Source: Bacteroidota bacterium
GTDB lineage: Bacteria; Bacteroidota; Bacteroidia; B-17B0; Aurantibacillaceae
Assembly (NCBI GenBank): GCA_017303905.1
Contig: JAFLBH010000001.1
Coordinates: forward strand, 721,809-785,808
Direction: 5' to 3'
DNA: 64,000 nt
The translations under genes and the position numbers were made by a program. Within the stretch, counting starts at the first letter, position 1. Each line of letters starts with the position of its first letter. This document shows, in pieces, positions 4,644-9,806 of this stretch. The notes under the pieces are model-generated. The model did no database searches, had not been told where the DNA came from, and saw nothing but the letters and a program-made list of their open reading frames with translations.

Positions 4644-5129
4644 TCAAATACACTTAAAGTAATCAAAAGGCTCTAAACAGTCATTGCATTGATAGAGTGA
4701 TTTACAAGCCGTACTTCCAAACTGAGAAACCAAACGCGTGTTGTCTGATTTACATCTCGGACATTTTACAATTTTACTTTTTCCGGTTAACCAACTTTTA
4801 TCCTCTGTTGTTTTTTCGGGAGGCGCAATGCCATAAACACGCAATTTTTCTTTTGCCTCTTCAGGTATCCAATCGGTCGTCCATGCCGGCGAATACACCA
4901 AGGTGATTTTAATTTCTTTAAAACCATTTGCAGTTAACACTTCCCTGATATCATCCTCCATGCGTTTCATAGCCGGACAACCACTATACGTTGGTGTGAT
5001 TTTTACTTCAACTGTTTCGCCGTTTAAAATCACATCGCGTATCACCCCTAATTCCGCAATGGTAATAACCGGAATTTCCGGATCCGGAATTTCCGAAAGC
5101 AATTTTAATATGTCGTCTTTGGATGCCAT
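4644..5129 (-). CDS. paaD: Phenylacetyl-CoA epoxidase subunit PaaD
   Basis: A 161-residue protein. Residues 1-100 form a MIP18/DUF59 domain (SEIPDPEIPVITIAELGVI near the start, then TYSGCPAMKRMEDDIREVL), and the C-terminal 40 residues hold a zinc-finger-like cluster, CPRC ... CNDC ... C. This two-part layout is typical of PaaD (also called PaaJ), thought to assist Fe-S or di-iron cofactor assembly of the PaaABCE epoxidase that opens aerobic phenylacetate breakdown. It follows the phosphatase gene by two bases, so it is probably translated from the same mRNA although three or four unrelated ORFs separate it from paaC. No PaaE reductase is in the window. Confidence 0.9.
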   Translation of the reverse strand: MASKDDILKLLSEIPDPEIPVITIAELGVIRDVILNGETVEVKITPTYSGCPAMKRMEDDIREVLTANGFKEIKITLVYSPAWTTDWIPEEAKEKLRVYGIAPPEKTTEDKSWLTGKSKIVKCPRCKSDNTRLVSQFGSTACKSLYQCNDCLEPFDYFKCI

Positions 5130-5131
5130 GT

Positions 5132-7183
5132 TTACACTTCAATGCCAATAACAGTTACATCATCTATTTGTTCGTTGTCGCCTTTCCATGTGTCGAATCG
5201 CTCTGTCAACGTTTCTTGTAAAACAGACAAACGATTTTCTTTGTTGCTATTAAGAATTTCCTCAAAGGCTTTATACATGAATTTTTTTCCTTTCGGTCCG
5301 CCAAATTGATCAGGATATCCGTCGGTGGTTACAAATATACGGTCCCCTTTTTTAGTGTTAATGATTTGCGCTTGATAATCTAAAAGTTCTTTATGGTGAA
5401 GTCCCACCGGAAATTTGTCGCCTTTGATTTCTTTTAATCCTTCTGAGCTTTGATGGTAAACTGAATTGTTTGCACCACTGAACATAATACTTTGGTTATT
5501 ACCATCAAAACGCAAAATAATCATGTCCATACCATCGCGTTTGTCTTTTCCCGCATCCTTATTCAAACTGCTTATTACTTTTTCACGAAGTAAATTTAGA
5601 ATCTTATCGGTTTCAAATATTTCGCGTTCGTTTACTATTTCATTTAAAAAGGAAATCCCCATCATACTCATAAACGCTCCCGGTACACCATGACCGGTAC
5701 AATCGGCAACCGCAACGAAATGATAATTTTTTACCACACTATGCCAATAAAAATCACCGCTAACAATATCCTTTGGTTTAAAAATCACAAAAGCATCGCT
5801 GAGTGTTTGTTTTAATTCCTTCTCATCCGGAATTAAAGCTTCCTGTATGGTTTTCGCGTAATTAATACTGTCAATGATTTCTTTGTTCTTAAAATCTACC
5901 AGTTGTTTTTGCTCTGCAATAATGTTTTTCTGAGAATTCGATTCTTTAAATCGTTTATAAAGAATGATAGAGAATGCAGTAATGGTGAGTGTGATGGCAA
6001 TAACAGAAAACAAAATAATATTTCGTTTTGCAGATTCTGCTTTCGAACGTTCTTCTGCATTTTTATTTTCTAATTGAAGCAGTTTAATTTCTTTTTCCTT
6101 TTGATCAGTTTCGTAGCGTGTTTGTAATTCAGTGAGCGAAGCTAAATTGGTAGATTGATTAACGGAATCTTTTAAATTAATATAGCGATATGCGTAATCA
6201 AACGCTTTTTCAAAATTGCTGAGGTAATAGTAAATGATGTACTGACTACTATAATTATCTATTTGCAGTGCAATGTCGTTTTGTTGTTTGCAAAGTTCTT
6301 CACCTTCTTTGGCGGCTTCCAATGCTTTCTTGTAATCTTTTTTCTTTAAGTAACAAGAGGCTAGATTGTTTTTCAAAATAGTGAGGGCATAACTGTCGCC
6401 TAATTCAGTTCTGATTTTAATGGCTTCCAAAGTTGTTTCGATGGCTTTGTCGTATTGTTTAAGTCCGTTATAATTCTCCGCCAAGTTAACAAGACTAACG
6501 CCAATACCTCTTTTGTGCTTTATTAAAGTAAAATATTTGAGCGATTGTTTATTATAAACCATCGCCGTATCAAATTTTTTAATCAAGCTAAATTCACCTG
6601 CCAAACGTGCAGAAATATTGGCAAAATTGAAAGTATCTTTTTCCTGTTGACTTAATCTTAGTCCTTCTTTGTAATAGCTTATTGCTTTTTCATGTAGGTC
6701 CATATTGCTATGTATATAACCTAAGTCGTGAGCAATTTTAATTTTATACTTAATGTTCTTTTTTGATTCGGCGAAGCGTTGTGCTTGTAAGCATAATTCG
6801 AGGGCTTTGTTGTATTGTAATGCTGAACTTAATGCACGCGAAGAAAGCAAGTATGTATTAATGATTAAAGCAGTGTCTTTCGTGATTCGCGCGTATTTAA
6901 TAGCGTCGGTTGTATAATAGCTGGAAGAATCGTTAAGGCCTTTTAATAAGTAATAGCGTACTAACTGTAAGTTAGATTTGGCATAGCCATAAATGTATTT
7001 TTTTTCTCTTGAAGCTTTGGCGCTTTGTTTAATTATAATAAGAGCCGAATCAGTATTTTGTTCAAGGAGCTTGTCCGCGAGACGTAAATTTTTATTAATA
7101 GCAACAGTGTCTTTCAGCTGCGGAAATAGAGAGTAAGAAAGGAGCAGAAGAAATAATAGACTTATAAATTTAATGCTGCGCAT
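5132..7183 (-). CDS. TPR-repeat membrane protein with SpoIIE/PP2C serine phosphatase domain
   Basis: A 683-residue signalling protein. It has a signal peptide, then a series of TPR helices (about residues 25-340, with repeats such as YDKAIETTLEAIKIR and YKKALEAAKEGEEL), a coiled-coil-like stretch, one membrane helix (near 395-415), a second linker (FKNKEIIDSINYAKTIQEAL) and a C-terminal SpoIIE-type PP2C domain. The phosphatase motifs are visible: SGDFYW, ADCTGHGVPGAFMSMMG and FVTTDGYPDQFGG, carrying the metal-binding aspartates. In Bacteroidota such proteins are thought to sense something through the TPR part and dephosphorylate an anti-sigma antagonist or a similar partner. No partner kinase, STAS or sigma gene is nearby. 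It sits inside the paa cluster, directly before paaD. Confidence 0.88.
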   Translation of the reverse strand: MRSIKFISLLFLLLLSYSLFPQLKDTVAINKNLRLADKLLEQNTDSALIIIKQSAKASREKKYIYGYAKSNLQLVRYYLLKGLNDSSSYYTTDAIKYARITKDTALIINTYLLSSRALSSALQYNKALELCLQAQRFAESKKNIKYKIKIAHDLGYIHSNMDLHEKAISYYKEGLRLSQQEKDTFNFANISARLAGEFSLIKKFDTAMVYNKQSLKYFTLIKHKRGIGVSLVNLAENYNGLKQYDKAIETTLEAIKIRTELGDSYALTILKNNLASCYLKKKDYKKALEAAKEGEELCKQQNDIALQIDNYSSQYIIYYYLSNFEKAFDYAYRYINLKDSVNQSTNLASLTELQTRYETDQKEKEIKLLQLENKNAEERSKAESAKRNIILFSVIAITLTITAFSIILYKRFKESNSQKNIIAEQKQLVDFKNKEIIDSINYAKTIQEALIPDEKELKQTLSDAFVIFKPKDIVSGDFYWHSVVKNYHFVAVADCTGHGVPGAFMSMMGISFLNEIVNEREIFETDKILNLLREKVISSLNKDAGKDKRDGMDMIILRFDGNNQSIMFSGANNSVYHQSSEGLKEIKGDKFPVGLHHKELLDYQAQIINTKKGDRIFVTTDGYPDQFGGPKGKKFMYKAFEEILNSNKENRLSVLQETLTERFDTWKGDNEQIDDVTVIGIEV

Positions 7184-7189
7184 ACTATA

Positions 7190-7297
7190 CTAAAGTATAA
7201 AAATAGCGCCAAGAATCATAATAAGAATAATAACAAGGTATTGCCAGAAATCTACAAAGTAAGGATAGAGTTTATTCCAAGAATCTTTTAAGCTCAT
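7190..7297 (-). CDS. Small single-helix membrane protein (35 aa), copy 1 of a duplicated micro-ORF
   Basis: A 35-codon ORF too short for ordinary gene calling. The N-terminus reads MSLKDSWNKLYPYFVDFW; after QY the rest is one strongly hydrophobic helix rich in isoleucine and leucine, ending AIFIL. It lies exactly between the end of micro-ORF copy 2 (its ATG overlaps that TGA as ATGA) and the phosphatase start (7183), which is what a translated operon member would show. The N-terminal 18 residues are shared with copy 2 except S2 to N, and the DNA changes over 56 bases fall mostly at silent positions, which suggests selection on the protein. I know no family for it; a small membrane partner of the neighbouring phosphatase is only a guess. 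Confidence 0.6.
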   Translation of the reverse strand: MSLKDSWNKLYPYFVDFWQYLVIILIMILGAIFIL

Positions 7298-7425
7298 AAA
7301 ATATTTCTTTGTTTAAAGTCTGGCAATTCATCCGCACAAGCCGGCTCAACACCCACTGGGTATTGCCCATGCCAGAAATCTACAAAGTAAGGATACAATT
7401 TATTCCAGGAGTCTTTTAAGTTCAT
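7242..7425. repeat. Direct repeat pair (56 bp each, five mismatches) inside the paa cluster
   Basis: Positions 7242-7297 and 7370-7425 align without gaps over 56 bases with five differences. The homology continues a few bases further (GGTATTGCC) if a six-base insert in the second copy is allowed. Each copy encodes the N-terminus of one micro-ORF on the minus strand. The 72 bases between them show no similarity to the membrane-helix part of copy 1. Confidence 0.85.
7294..7425 (-). CDS. Micro-ORF copy 2 (43 aa), diverged duplicate lacking the membrane helix
   Basis: This 43-codon ORF starts with an ATG that overlaps the TGA of the upstream secreted protein (ATGA at 7422-7425) and ends in a TGA that overlaps the ATG of copy 1. 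Residues 1-18 (MNLKDSWNKLYPYFVDFW) match copy 1 at 17 of 18 positions. A two-residue insert (HG) follows, then QY, after which the hydrophobic helix is replaced by a polar tail, PVGVEPACADELPDFKQ. It may be a functional soluble variant, or a decayed duplicate kept only because it links translation of its neighbours. The exact overlaps at both ends argue that it is translated. Confidence 0.45.
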   Translation of the reverse strand: MNLKDSWNKLYPYFVDFWHGQYPVGVEPACADELPDFKQRNIL

Positions 7426-7763
7426 TTTTCATCCTTTATTACCGTAAACACATATTTTTTATTTGTAATGTTTTTACAGTCAGATTCTATTTCTCGTACA
7501 ATCACCTTTTGTAGTCTACTGATGTCTTTAGGTAATGCTAGAAAATGTCCGTTAAGTTTGAATTCATTTACATTTCCATTTACCACCATCCCATACATGC
7601 AATTTTTGATCTTGCAATTTTTGTCGACGTTTTGAACTAAATCAGAAAACACTTTTGCGTCTCTTAACTGTTTACGTGTTACGTTTATGTTTATTTCTTC
7701 CGATTGAGCATTTCCAATTAAAAAGCACAAAGAAAGAATTGTTAAACAAAAAAATCTTTTCAT
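7422..7763 (-). CDS. Secreted or periplasmic hypothetical protein
   Basis: A 113-residue protein of unknown function. A signal peptide is clear (MKRFFCLTILSLCFLIGNAQS). The mature part has three or four cysteines (CKIKNC ... ESDCKN) and a run of alternating charged and hydrophobic residues; no domain is recognised. An in-frame ATG 12 bases upstream would start inside the end of paaC, so the ATG at 7763, five bases after the paaC stop and directly before the signal peptide, is preferred. Its stop overlaps the start of micro-ORF copy 2, so it belongs to the same transcript as the paa genes. Confidence 0.65.
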   Translation of the reverse strand: MKRFFCLTILSLCFLIGNAQSEEININVTRKQLRDAKVFSDLVQNVDKNCKIKNCMYGMVVNGNVNEFKLNGHFLALPKDISRLQKVIVREIESDCKNITNKKYVFTVIKDEK

Positions 7764-7768
7764 AACAA

Positions 7769-8518
7769 TTACCATTTTGCATTCGGATACATTCTTGGAA
7801 CTGTTTGCATTTCCGACAATAAATACCCTAAATGTTCGGTATGCATGCCTTTTCTTCCACCGCTTTGCATAAATGATGATTCCGGTTTTTTAAGTGTGGC
7901 TTTGGTTAATAAGTCGGTAATTTGTTTTTCCCACTTTTCTTTTAATAAAGATGTATTAACGACGATGCCTTCTTTTACTAATTTGTTTTCTACGTCATCC
8001 ATTTCAAACAGTTCTCCGGTAAAACGCCATAATTCGTTAACCGCTTCTTGTGCGCGGTTATGACTTTCTTCGGTACCATCACCGAAACGTAATACCCATG
8101 AAGAGCTGTGACGAACGTGATACGTCACTTCTTTAATTGCTTTTTGAGCAATGCCCGCTATTGTTTCATCTTTGCTTTTAGCCAGTTCGGTATACAGTAA
8201 CAAATTAAAATGATCAACAAAAGCCTGACGAACAATTGTCTTGGCATAGTCACCGTTAGGTTGTTCTACTAACAAAACATTGGTGTATTCTCTTTCATGT
8301 CTGAAATAAGCTAAATCATCAGCGCTTCTACCTTTGCCTTCTACTTGAGCAGCATATTCCAATAGCGATGTTGCGGTGCCAAAAGTATCGAGTGCCACAT
8401 TGGTTAATGCTAAATCTTCTTCTAAAAACGGCCCGTGTCCGGTCCACTCACTTAATCGTTGCGCCAGTACCAAAGAATTATCCGCAAGGCGAAGTGTATA
8501 TACAAATAGATTATTCAT
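7769..8518 (-). CDS. paaC: Phenylacetyl-CoA epoxidase structural subunit PaaC
   Basis: A 249-residue helical ferritin-like protein, the usual size for PaaC. It has the family opening (LRLADNSLVLAQRLSEWTGH), the EYAAQVEGKGRSADDLAYFR region and the VTYHVRHSSSWVLRFGDGT segment. PaaC pairs with PaaA in the epoxidase; it lacks the full set of iron ligands and acts as a scaffold. It follows paaB by 24 bases. The next reading frames downstream are not paa genes, unlike the common paaABCDE order. Confidence 0.95.
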   Translation of the reverse strand: MNNLFVYTLRLADNSLVLAQRLSEWTGHGPFLEEDLALTNVALDTFGTATSLLEYAAQVEGKGRSADDLAYFRHEREYTNVLLVEQPNGDYAKTIVRQAFVDHFNLLLYTELAKSKDETIAGIAQKAIKEVTYHVRHSSSWVLRFGDGTEESHNRAQEAVNELWRFTGELFEMDDVENKLVKEGIVVNTSLLKEKWEKQITDLLTKATLKKPESSFMQSGGRKGMHTEHLGYLLSEMQTVPRMYPNAKW

Positions 8519-8542: not shown

Positions 8543-8830
8543 TTACATGTGACCAATTGCATCCGGAATCTGATAGAAAGTAGGATGTCTGTAAACTTTA
8601 TCATTGGCAGGTTCAAAAAATGAGCCCATGTCTTCCGGACTGCTTGCGGTAATCGCAGATGATGGAACTACCCATAAAGCCATTCCTTCATTGCGGCGTG
8701 TATATAAATCGCGCGCATTTTGTAATGCCATCTCTTTATCAAATGCATGTAAACTGCCGCAGTGTACAAACGGTTGTCCCGCTTTCTTTTGCACAAATAC
8801 TTCCCAAAGTGGTCCTTGTGAATCGCTCAT
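8543..8830 (-). CDS. paaB: Phenylacetyl-CoA epoxidase subunit PaaB
   Basis: A 95-residue protein with the full PaaB pattern: WEVFVQKKAGQPFVHCGSLH, then ALQNARDLYTRRNEGMALWV and a C-terminal FFEPANDKVYRHPTFY. PaaB is a small subunit that bridges the PaaA-PaaC heterodimers. It lies 37 bases after paaA and 24 before paaC on the same strand. Confidence 0.96.
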   Translation of the reverse strand: MSDSQGPLWEVFVQKKAGQPFVHCGSLHAFDKEMALQNARDLYTRRNEGMALWVVPSSAITASSPEDMGSFFEPANDKVYRHPTFYQIPDAIGHM

Positions 8831-8867: not shown

Positions 8868-9806
8868 TTATGCTGCTATTGATTGATTTTGTTTTTTAGC
8901 GTAGGCTGCTGCTGCTTCACGTACCCAAGCGCCATCTTTATGCGCTTTAACGCGTGCGCCTAAACGCTCCTTGTTGCAAGGACCATTGCCGCTAATCACG
9001 TTTTTGAATTCTGTCCAATCCGGTTCACTGAAATCGTAGCCTTTCTTCGCCTCATTCCATTTTAATTTTGAATCGGGAACAGTTAATCCTAAATATTCTA
9101 CTTGCGGAACAGTTTGATTAACGAAACGCTGACGTAACTGATCGTTGGTTTCACGCTTGATACGCCACTTCATTGCATTTTCACTGTTAGGTGACTCAGC
9201 ATCCGGCGGACCAAACATCATCATTGTTGGAAACCACCAACGATTGATAGCATCTTGTGCCATTGCTTTTTGCTCAGGAGTTCCAAAAGCTAAGTGAGTC
9301 ATGATTTCATAACCCTGGCGTTGATGAAAACTTTCTTCCTTGCAAATTCTCACCATTGCCCGTGCATACGGACCGTAAGAAGTACGCTGCAACATTACCT
9401 GATTCATAATGGCTGCGCCATCAACTAACCATCCAATGGCACCAATGTCGGCCCAAGTAAGAGTAGGGTAATTGAAGATGGAAGAGTATTTTGCTTTTCC
9501 TGTATGTAAATTATCTAATAATTCATCACGGCTGATTCCTAAAGTTTCAGCAGCAGTGTAAAGGTATAATCCGTGTCCGCCTTCGTCTTGTACTTTTGCT
9601 AATAAAACTTTTTTTGCACGCAAACTAGGGGCACGTGTAATCCAATTACCTTCAGGTAGCATGCCAACAATTTCAGAATGGGCATGCTGAGAAACCTGAC
9701 GAATCAAATGTTTACGGTAGTTCTCCGGCATCCAATCTTTTGGTTCAATCATTTCGTTTTTTGCCAATTTGGCTTCAAACAAATCTTCATAGGTTTTATT
9801 TTCCAT
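8868..9806 (-). CDS. paaA: Phenylacetyl-CoA epoxidase catalytic subunit PaaA
   Basis: A 312-residue ferritin-like di-iron oxygenase subunit that forms the 1,2-epoxide of phenylacetyl-CoA. Conserved parts include [18 protein letters not shown], the iron-site helices around [17 protein letters not shown] and [14 protein letters not shown], and [14 protein letters not shown]. An in-frame TTG at 9830 would add eight residues, but that codon lies inside the likely -7 promoter box (9828-9835), so the ATG at 9806 is used. It is the first gene of the paa cluster. No paaE, paaG, paaZ or paaK is in the window, so the rest of the pathway must be elsewhere. Confidence 0.96.

Follow-up and report, generated by a model that had tools for sequence, protein, structure and literature searches.

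Microproteins of the CydX, KdpF and AcrZ type are 30-50 residues long, contain one helix and are often encoded in an operon; close to the membrane surface, they also have aromatic and polar residues that are conserved. These features are shared by the predicted product of a short gene, hereafter copy 1, which is located in a 64,000-nucleotide stretch of the genome of a Bacteroidota bacterium (the window, i.e. the whole of the DNA that was analysed) and is accompanied by a second, related micro-ORF, copy 2. The likeness does not extend to the genomic context: CydX and KdpF usually sit with the genes of their partners, whereas the microprotein described here swaps neighbours between families. 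Moreover, copy 1 was rejected as a CydX, since the CydX motif, YxxWxxGx15E/D (PMC4325964), is absent, and the conserved motif is YFxDxWQY, with no Gly at that place. Cytochrome bd and Kdp were likewise rejected as general partners in the order to which the genome belongs: of 87 genomes, 71 carry the microprotein, but CydA was found in 1 and KdpA in 10. In more general terms, the small membrane proteins of the Pro-SMP survey (PMC10903887), as described in its main text, represent the same kind of gene, i.e. a small conserved ORF with one helix; taxa named Bacteroid- or Flavobacter- are not mentioned in that main text, and literature searches found no report of the microprotein.

The two micro-ORFs are both on the minus strand, copy 2 at 7294-7425 (43 aa, MNLKDSWNKLYPYFVDFWHGQYPVGVEPACADELPDFKQRNIL) and copy 1 at 7190-7297 (35 aa, MSLKDSWNKLYPYFVDFWQYLVIILIMILGAIFIL), and the pair sits within a phenylacetyl-CoA epoxidase operon. 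All the genes of this chain have the same orientation: paaA (8868-9806; TIGR02156, 1.8e-157), paaB (8543-8830; TIGR02157, 3.6e-38) and paaC (7769-8518; TIGR02158, 4.3e-93) are followed by a gene for a small secreted protein, which has a signal peptide and distantly resembles the GldM C-terminal domain (7422-7763), by copy 2 and copy 1, by a gene for a 683-aa protein that joins TPR repeats to a SpoIIE phosphatase (5132-7183; Pfam SpoIIE 6.5e-18, TPR_12 5e-14), and by paaD (4644-5129; TIGR02159, 3.5e-59). In the minus-strand reading, the stop codon of the secreted-protein gene overlaps the ATG of copy 2, and the stop codon of copy 2 overlaps the ATG of copy 1, in both cases as ATGA; the ATG of the TPR/SpoIIE gene starts 6 nt after the end of copy 1. 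Residues 1-18 of the two copies are identical at 17 of 18 positions; copy 2 has HG inserted before QY and then a polar tail in place of the transmembrane part, whereas copy 1 continues, after its YFxDxWQY motif, into a hydrophobic helix, the C-terminus of the protein being ..IFIL. A preliminary description of the locus had reported the shared N-terminus, the membrane character of copy 1 and the ATGA tiling, and these points are borne out by the sequence, by the junctions and by the structure prediction given below. The continuous chain that it drew from the secreted protein to the phosphatase has the right junctions; the chain is longer, spanning paaA to paaD. A second paaA-type gene is present in the genome of the window (G000:C1:1312262-1313128), and likewise in many relatives.

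No Pfam or NCBIfam match was obtained for the copy 1 peptide of the window, in agreement with the earlier statement that it belongs to no known family. With 46 diverse members, the searches returned weak matches to unrelated families, the best being SHP in Pfam (5e-4, 7 of 46) and one at 0.0094 in NCBIfam; the same members gave weak, unrelated matches in PHROGs (best 0.0028), and comparison of the microprotein with PDB chains produced chance matches (best E 1.4). By these searches, copy 1 represents a microprotein family that has not been catalogued, although its general kind is known: this protein of 35 residues falls under no public family model, yet two or more Bacteroidota families have conserved it in most of their members.

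Conservation of the N-terminus in other genomes, the check that the preliminary description had proposed, was strongly positive for copy 1. Homologues were detected by protein search (E <= 0.001) in 71 of the 87 genomes of its own family, sampling by family and by order having returned the identical 87 genomes (a separate count of 72 of 87 included one chance match in a long frame); copy 1 is therefore no chance ORF. A profile search of a Bacteroidia sample located the microprotein in 56 of 395 genomes and 28 of 197 genera, with about 50 strong matches. In the family f20, 114 of 150 genomes carry it, with exactly one match each; this family is of Crocinitomicaceae type, as the gene order of its loci recurs in records that bear the title Crocinitomicaceae or Fluviicola. 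Lishizhenia tianjinensis (L202) is an example of a carrier that is in culture. When a back-translated YFVDxWQY pattern was used on GTDB species, at least 120 stretches matched; among the 80 loci listed, 77 are true homologues, having a hydrophobic C-terminus that ends at the stop, and nearly all of these, among the matches listed, are titled Bacteroidota, while L184, L188 and L198 are non-homologues and illustrate chance matches. A broader profile, applied to a phylum-wide sample composed mostly of other families, found the microprotein in 3 of 396 genomes including its own, the other two matches being weak. Judged from these distributions, hundreds of Bacteroidota from the environment carry copy 1 with little change. 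The trait belongs to particular lineages and is not spread through the phylum at large, with the reservation that short homologues of high divergence would escape such searches.

When 64 disjoint pairs are pooled, the microprotein has a pN of 0.10 and a pS of 0.55, which gives a pN/pS of 0.19; since pS is saturated, this value is an upper bound and the true ratio is lower. As far as substitution patterns can tell, copy 1 is protein-coding and under purifying selection. Counted from the tyrosine of the motif, 143 of 147 peptides have exactly 23 residues before the stop, though 20-26 were allowed. F14, D16, W18 and Q19 are invariant in the 46 diverse members, where Y13, Y20, I24 and L35 are nearly so; in the pattern-derived loci, the motif is conserved by construction, a bias that does not extend to the C-terminal half. 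Such a rigid length, together with an invariant polar-aromatic motif, implies that the microprotein must serve some useful cell function. AlphaFold2 predicts a single helix for copy 1, covering residues 3-34 with a mean pLDDT of 87, and the conservation moment revealed no conserved helical face in the microprotein (p 0.39). An N-in/C-out topology is expected, because the N-terminal arm is basic and precedes the hydrophobic part. The hydrophobic stretch, at whose edge D16 and Q19 are found, comprises about 15-18 residues, rather few for a full span, so that copy 1 may possibly act as an interfacial anchor instead. Short, predicted to form one hydrophobic helix and under purifying selection across species, copy 1 displays the features by which a small membrane protein is recognised.

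Our best guess, made by analogy with the systems cited above, is that copy 1 is an accessory subunit of a putative partner. This partner is most likely encoded elsewhere, because the microprotein keeps its sequence but not its neighbours. Inserted N-in/C-out, the copy 1 product would use its motif and its helix to pack against a larger protein of the inner membrane, the gene of which lies elsewhere, and may serve as an accessory subunit or stabiliser, like CydX, KdpF or AcrZ; its placement in an operon would provide expression, not the identity of the partner. The combined account, i.e. copy 1 as an accessory microprotein for an inner-membrane protein encoded elsewhere and copy 2 as a decaying duplicate, is considered somewhat probable; the lack of a conserved helical face and the shortness of the hydrophobic stretch count against it, as does the intact, coupled frame of copy 2.

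The location of the gene suggests a different role, in which the microprotein would cooperate with the phenylacetyl-CoA epoxidase, e.g. as a membrane tether for PaaABC(E) or as a regulator. Indeed, in this order the microprotein gene is usually placed between paaC and paaD of the PaaABCDE operon: of 41 loci, 32 have paaC no more than three genes upstream and 28 have paaD no more than three genes downstream, the gaps to the paa genes are mostly short and co-directional, and the same placement recurs in other groups (G220/L099, L187 and L194). However, the microprotein is not universal among paa operons, as most paa-bearing Bacteroidia are without it (PaaA in 285 of 395 genomes, the microprotein in 56 of 395), and it is also found in genomes devoid of PaaA, namely G184 (100% complete) and G066 (92%); by this lack of co-presence, a component of the Paa epoxidase was rejected. 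We know of no Paa subunit so short or membrane-bound. The microprotein also appears dispensable at the paaC-paaD junction, because in relatives that lack it and have both genes on one stretch these are 10-50 nt apart. Furthermore, several lineages hold it far from paa: in the Crocinitomicaceae-type loci it comes before a large secreted repeat protein, a glycosyltransferase and a HAD-type gene, and in the f21 loci after an inositol-monophosphatase-like gene. A role with the epoxidase is thus unlikely, although it retains more credit than the other alternatives discussed below.

The paaC-paaD junction of the order takes varied inserts, singly or together (e.g. L296, L067 and L048); they comprise the secreted GldM-like protein, the microprotein, the TPR/SpoIIE phosphatase, other ORFs and, in L296, a 67-aa hydrophobic protein. 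The family of the secreted protein is divergent, with two invariant Cys, and within the order, seven genomes together have eight members at this junction. PF12080 (GldM_4th) is matched by 6 of the 8 homologues, with a best value of 2e-6, and not by the member of the window; a fold search of this secreted neighbour gave no significant match.

Both micro-ORFs had at first been regarded as real products; this holds for copy 1, which is conserved, whereas the structure containing copy 2 is confined to the genome of the window (G000) and that of a sister species (G052). G057, a single-copy genome from the same genus, has an intact microprotein gene whose start overlaps the secreted-protein gene by ATGA; as the same junction serves the intact gene there, copy 2 holds the old start, and its head (codons 1-18, 7372-7425), which is the part nearly identical to copy 1, occupies the ancestral start position. 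The DNA repeat shared by the two copies is 56 nt long, with 91% identity and a spacing of 128 nt. The tail of copy 2 is coded by a 74-nt filler (7298-7371), which has a GC content of 0.45 versus 0.29 for copy 1. No second copy of the filler was found in its own genome, the other family genomes (87 relatives) gave short weak matches except for G052, and plasmids and phages gave none, so that a repeated or mobile element was rejected as its source. By this comparison, 128 nt were placed within the gene before the split of the two sister species, consisting of a 54-nt repeat of its own head and the 74-nt filler; the old start now drives a truncated ORF without the helix, and the full gene restarts at a new, ATGA-coupled start.

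That copy 2 instead functions as a variant without the helix, competing with copy 1 in soluble form for instance, is improbable. A function is conceivable in that both sister species have kept the ORF intact and its coupling exact; the head, too, is nearly unchanged as a protein, with 6 synonymous and 1 nonsynonymous changes between G000 and G052. However, the head codons match the copy 1 of their own genome in a mosaic, the head differences within the two genomes being 5 and 2, and this pattern points to gene conversion with copy 1, not to selection on copy 2. The tail, with 1 synonymous and 4 nonsynonymous changes between the same genomes, has no sign of constraint, although the numbers are small, and copy 2 is restricted to two species. 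On this comparison, copy 2 is most likely a young partial tandem duplicate in decay; its reading frame, still open, would link translation to that of copy 1, and copy 2 would have no function beyond keeping ribosomes moving into that gene. A decaying duplicate had been the fallback of the preliminary description, which made it depend on an N-terminus not conserved elsewhere; the outcome probably stands, while the premise failed, the N-terminus of copy 1 being conserved in other genomes. The locus clearly shows how partial tandem duplication with a filler creates a short-lived, translationally coupled new ORF.

As for the partner of copy 1, paralogues of the microprotein in four genomes adjoin SulP-like, DUF983-like or ND5-like genes (names assigned by eye). 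From such neighbours, the microprotein may be envisaged as an accessory factor in the transport of anions/bicarbonate or in proton-coupled transport, as SulP-family genes lie near the microprotein in L035, L042, L108 and L114 and an ND5-like gene in L108 and L053, in all cases recognised by eye and not by profile; however, this proposal is post hoc, is built on few independent cases, two of them homologous, and finds no such neighbour in most loci, including the window, so that only a slim chance is assigned to it. Equally slim is the chance of a bolder form of the preferred account, according to which copy 1, a core protein of its lineage, would be a small subunit so far overlooked in a major inner-membrane complex of Bacteroidota that is not known to have one, and the helix-less duplicate of the two species would be its natural competitor.

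The adjacent TPR/SpoIIE phosphatase had initially been proposed as a possible target of copy 1, which could be its regulator; a role as its membrane anchor may be considered together with this. The same gene order recurs in 6 of 41 loci of the order, in two genera; however, the phosphatase is absent at the other 35 family loci and at nearly all loci of other families, the microprotein being found in hundreds of genomes in other contexts, and the phosphatase of the window has its own hydrophobic segment between the TPR and the SpoIIE parts, all of which makes this proposal very improbable. To judge from gene order and co-occurrence, copy 1 is neither a dedicated phosphatase partner nor strictly a part of Paa. 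Its size and hydrophobic helix would also suit a membrane-active peptide like the type I toxins, a scarcely credible identity for a slowly evolving protein that is near-universal and single-copy in a whole family and is placed within metabolic operons, as such toxins normally have a patchy distribution and often several copies.

A few features of the loci found in other genomes deserve mention. A paralogous type of the microprotein, with the motif KKYGxYFVDxWQY (L035, L042, L050, L107 and L192), is located beside a DUF983-like gene in two or more families, often also with SulP-like, GcvH-like and methyltransferase-like genes. In one of these loci, L050, a truncated and a full-length ribonuclease-H-like ORF flank a Fic-like gene 700-2797 nt downstream of the microprotein; the two ORFs are nearly identical in their shared part, as if the Fic-like gene had been inserted with partial duplication. 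Finally, a complete chromosome titled Glaciecola amylolytica (L216, CP034120.1) contains the microprotein in the Crocinitomicaceae-type gene order, i.e. a ClpB-like gene, the microprotein, a glycosyltransferase and a HAD-type gene, which suggests that the title of the record is wrong.
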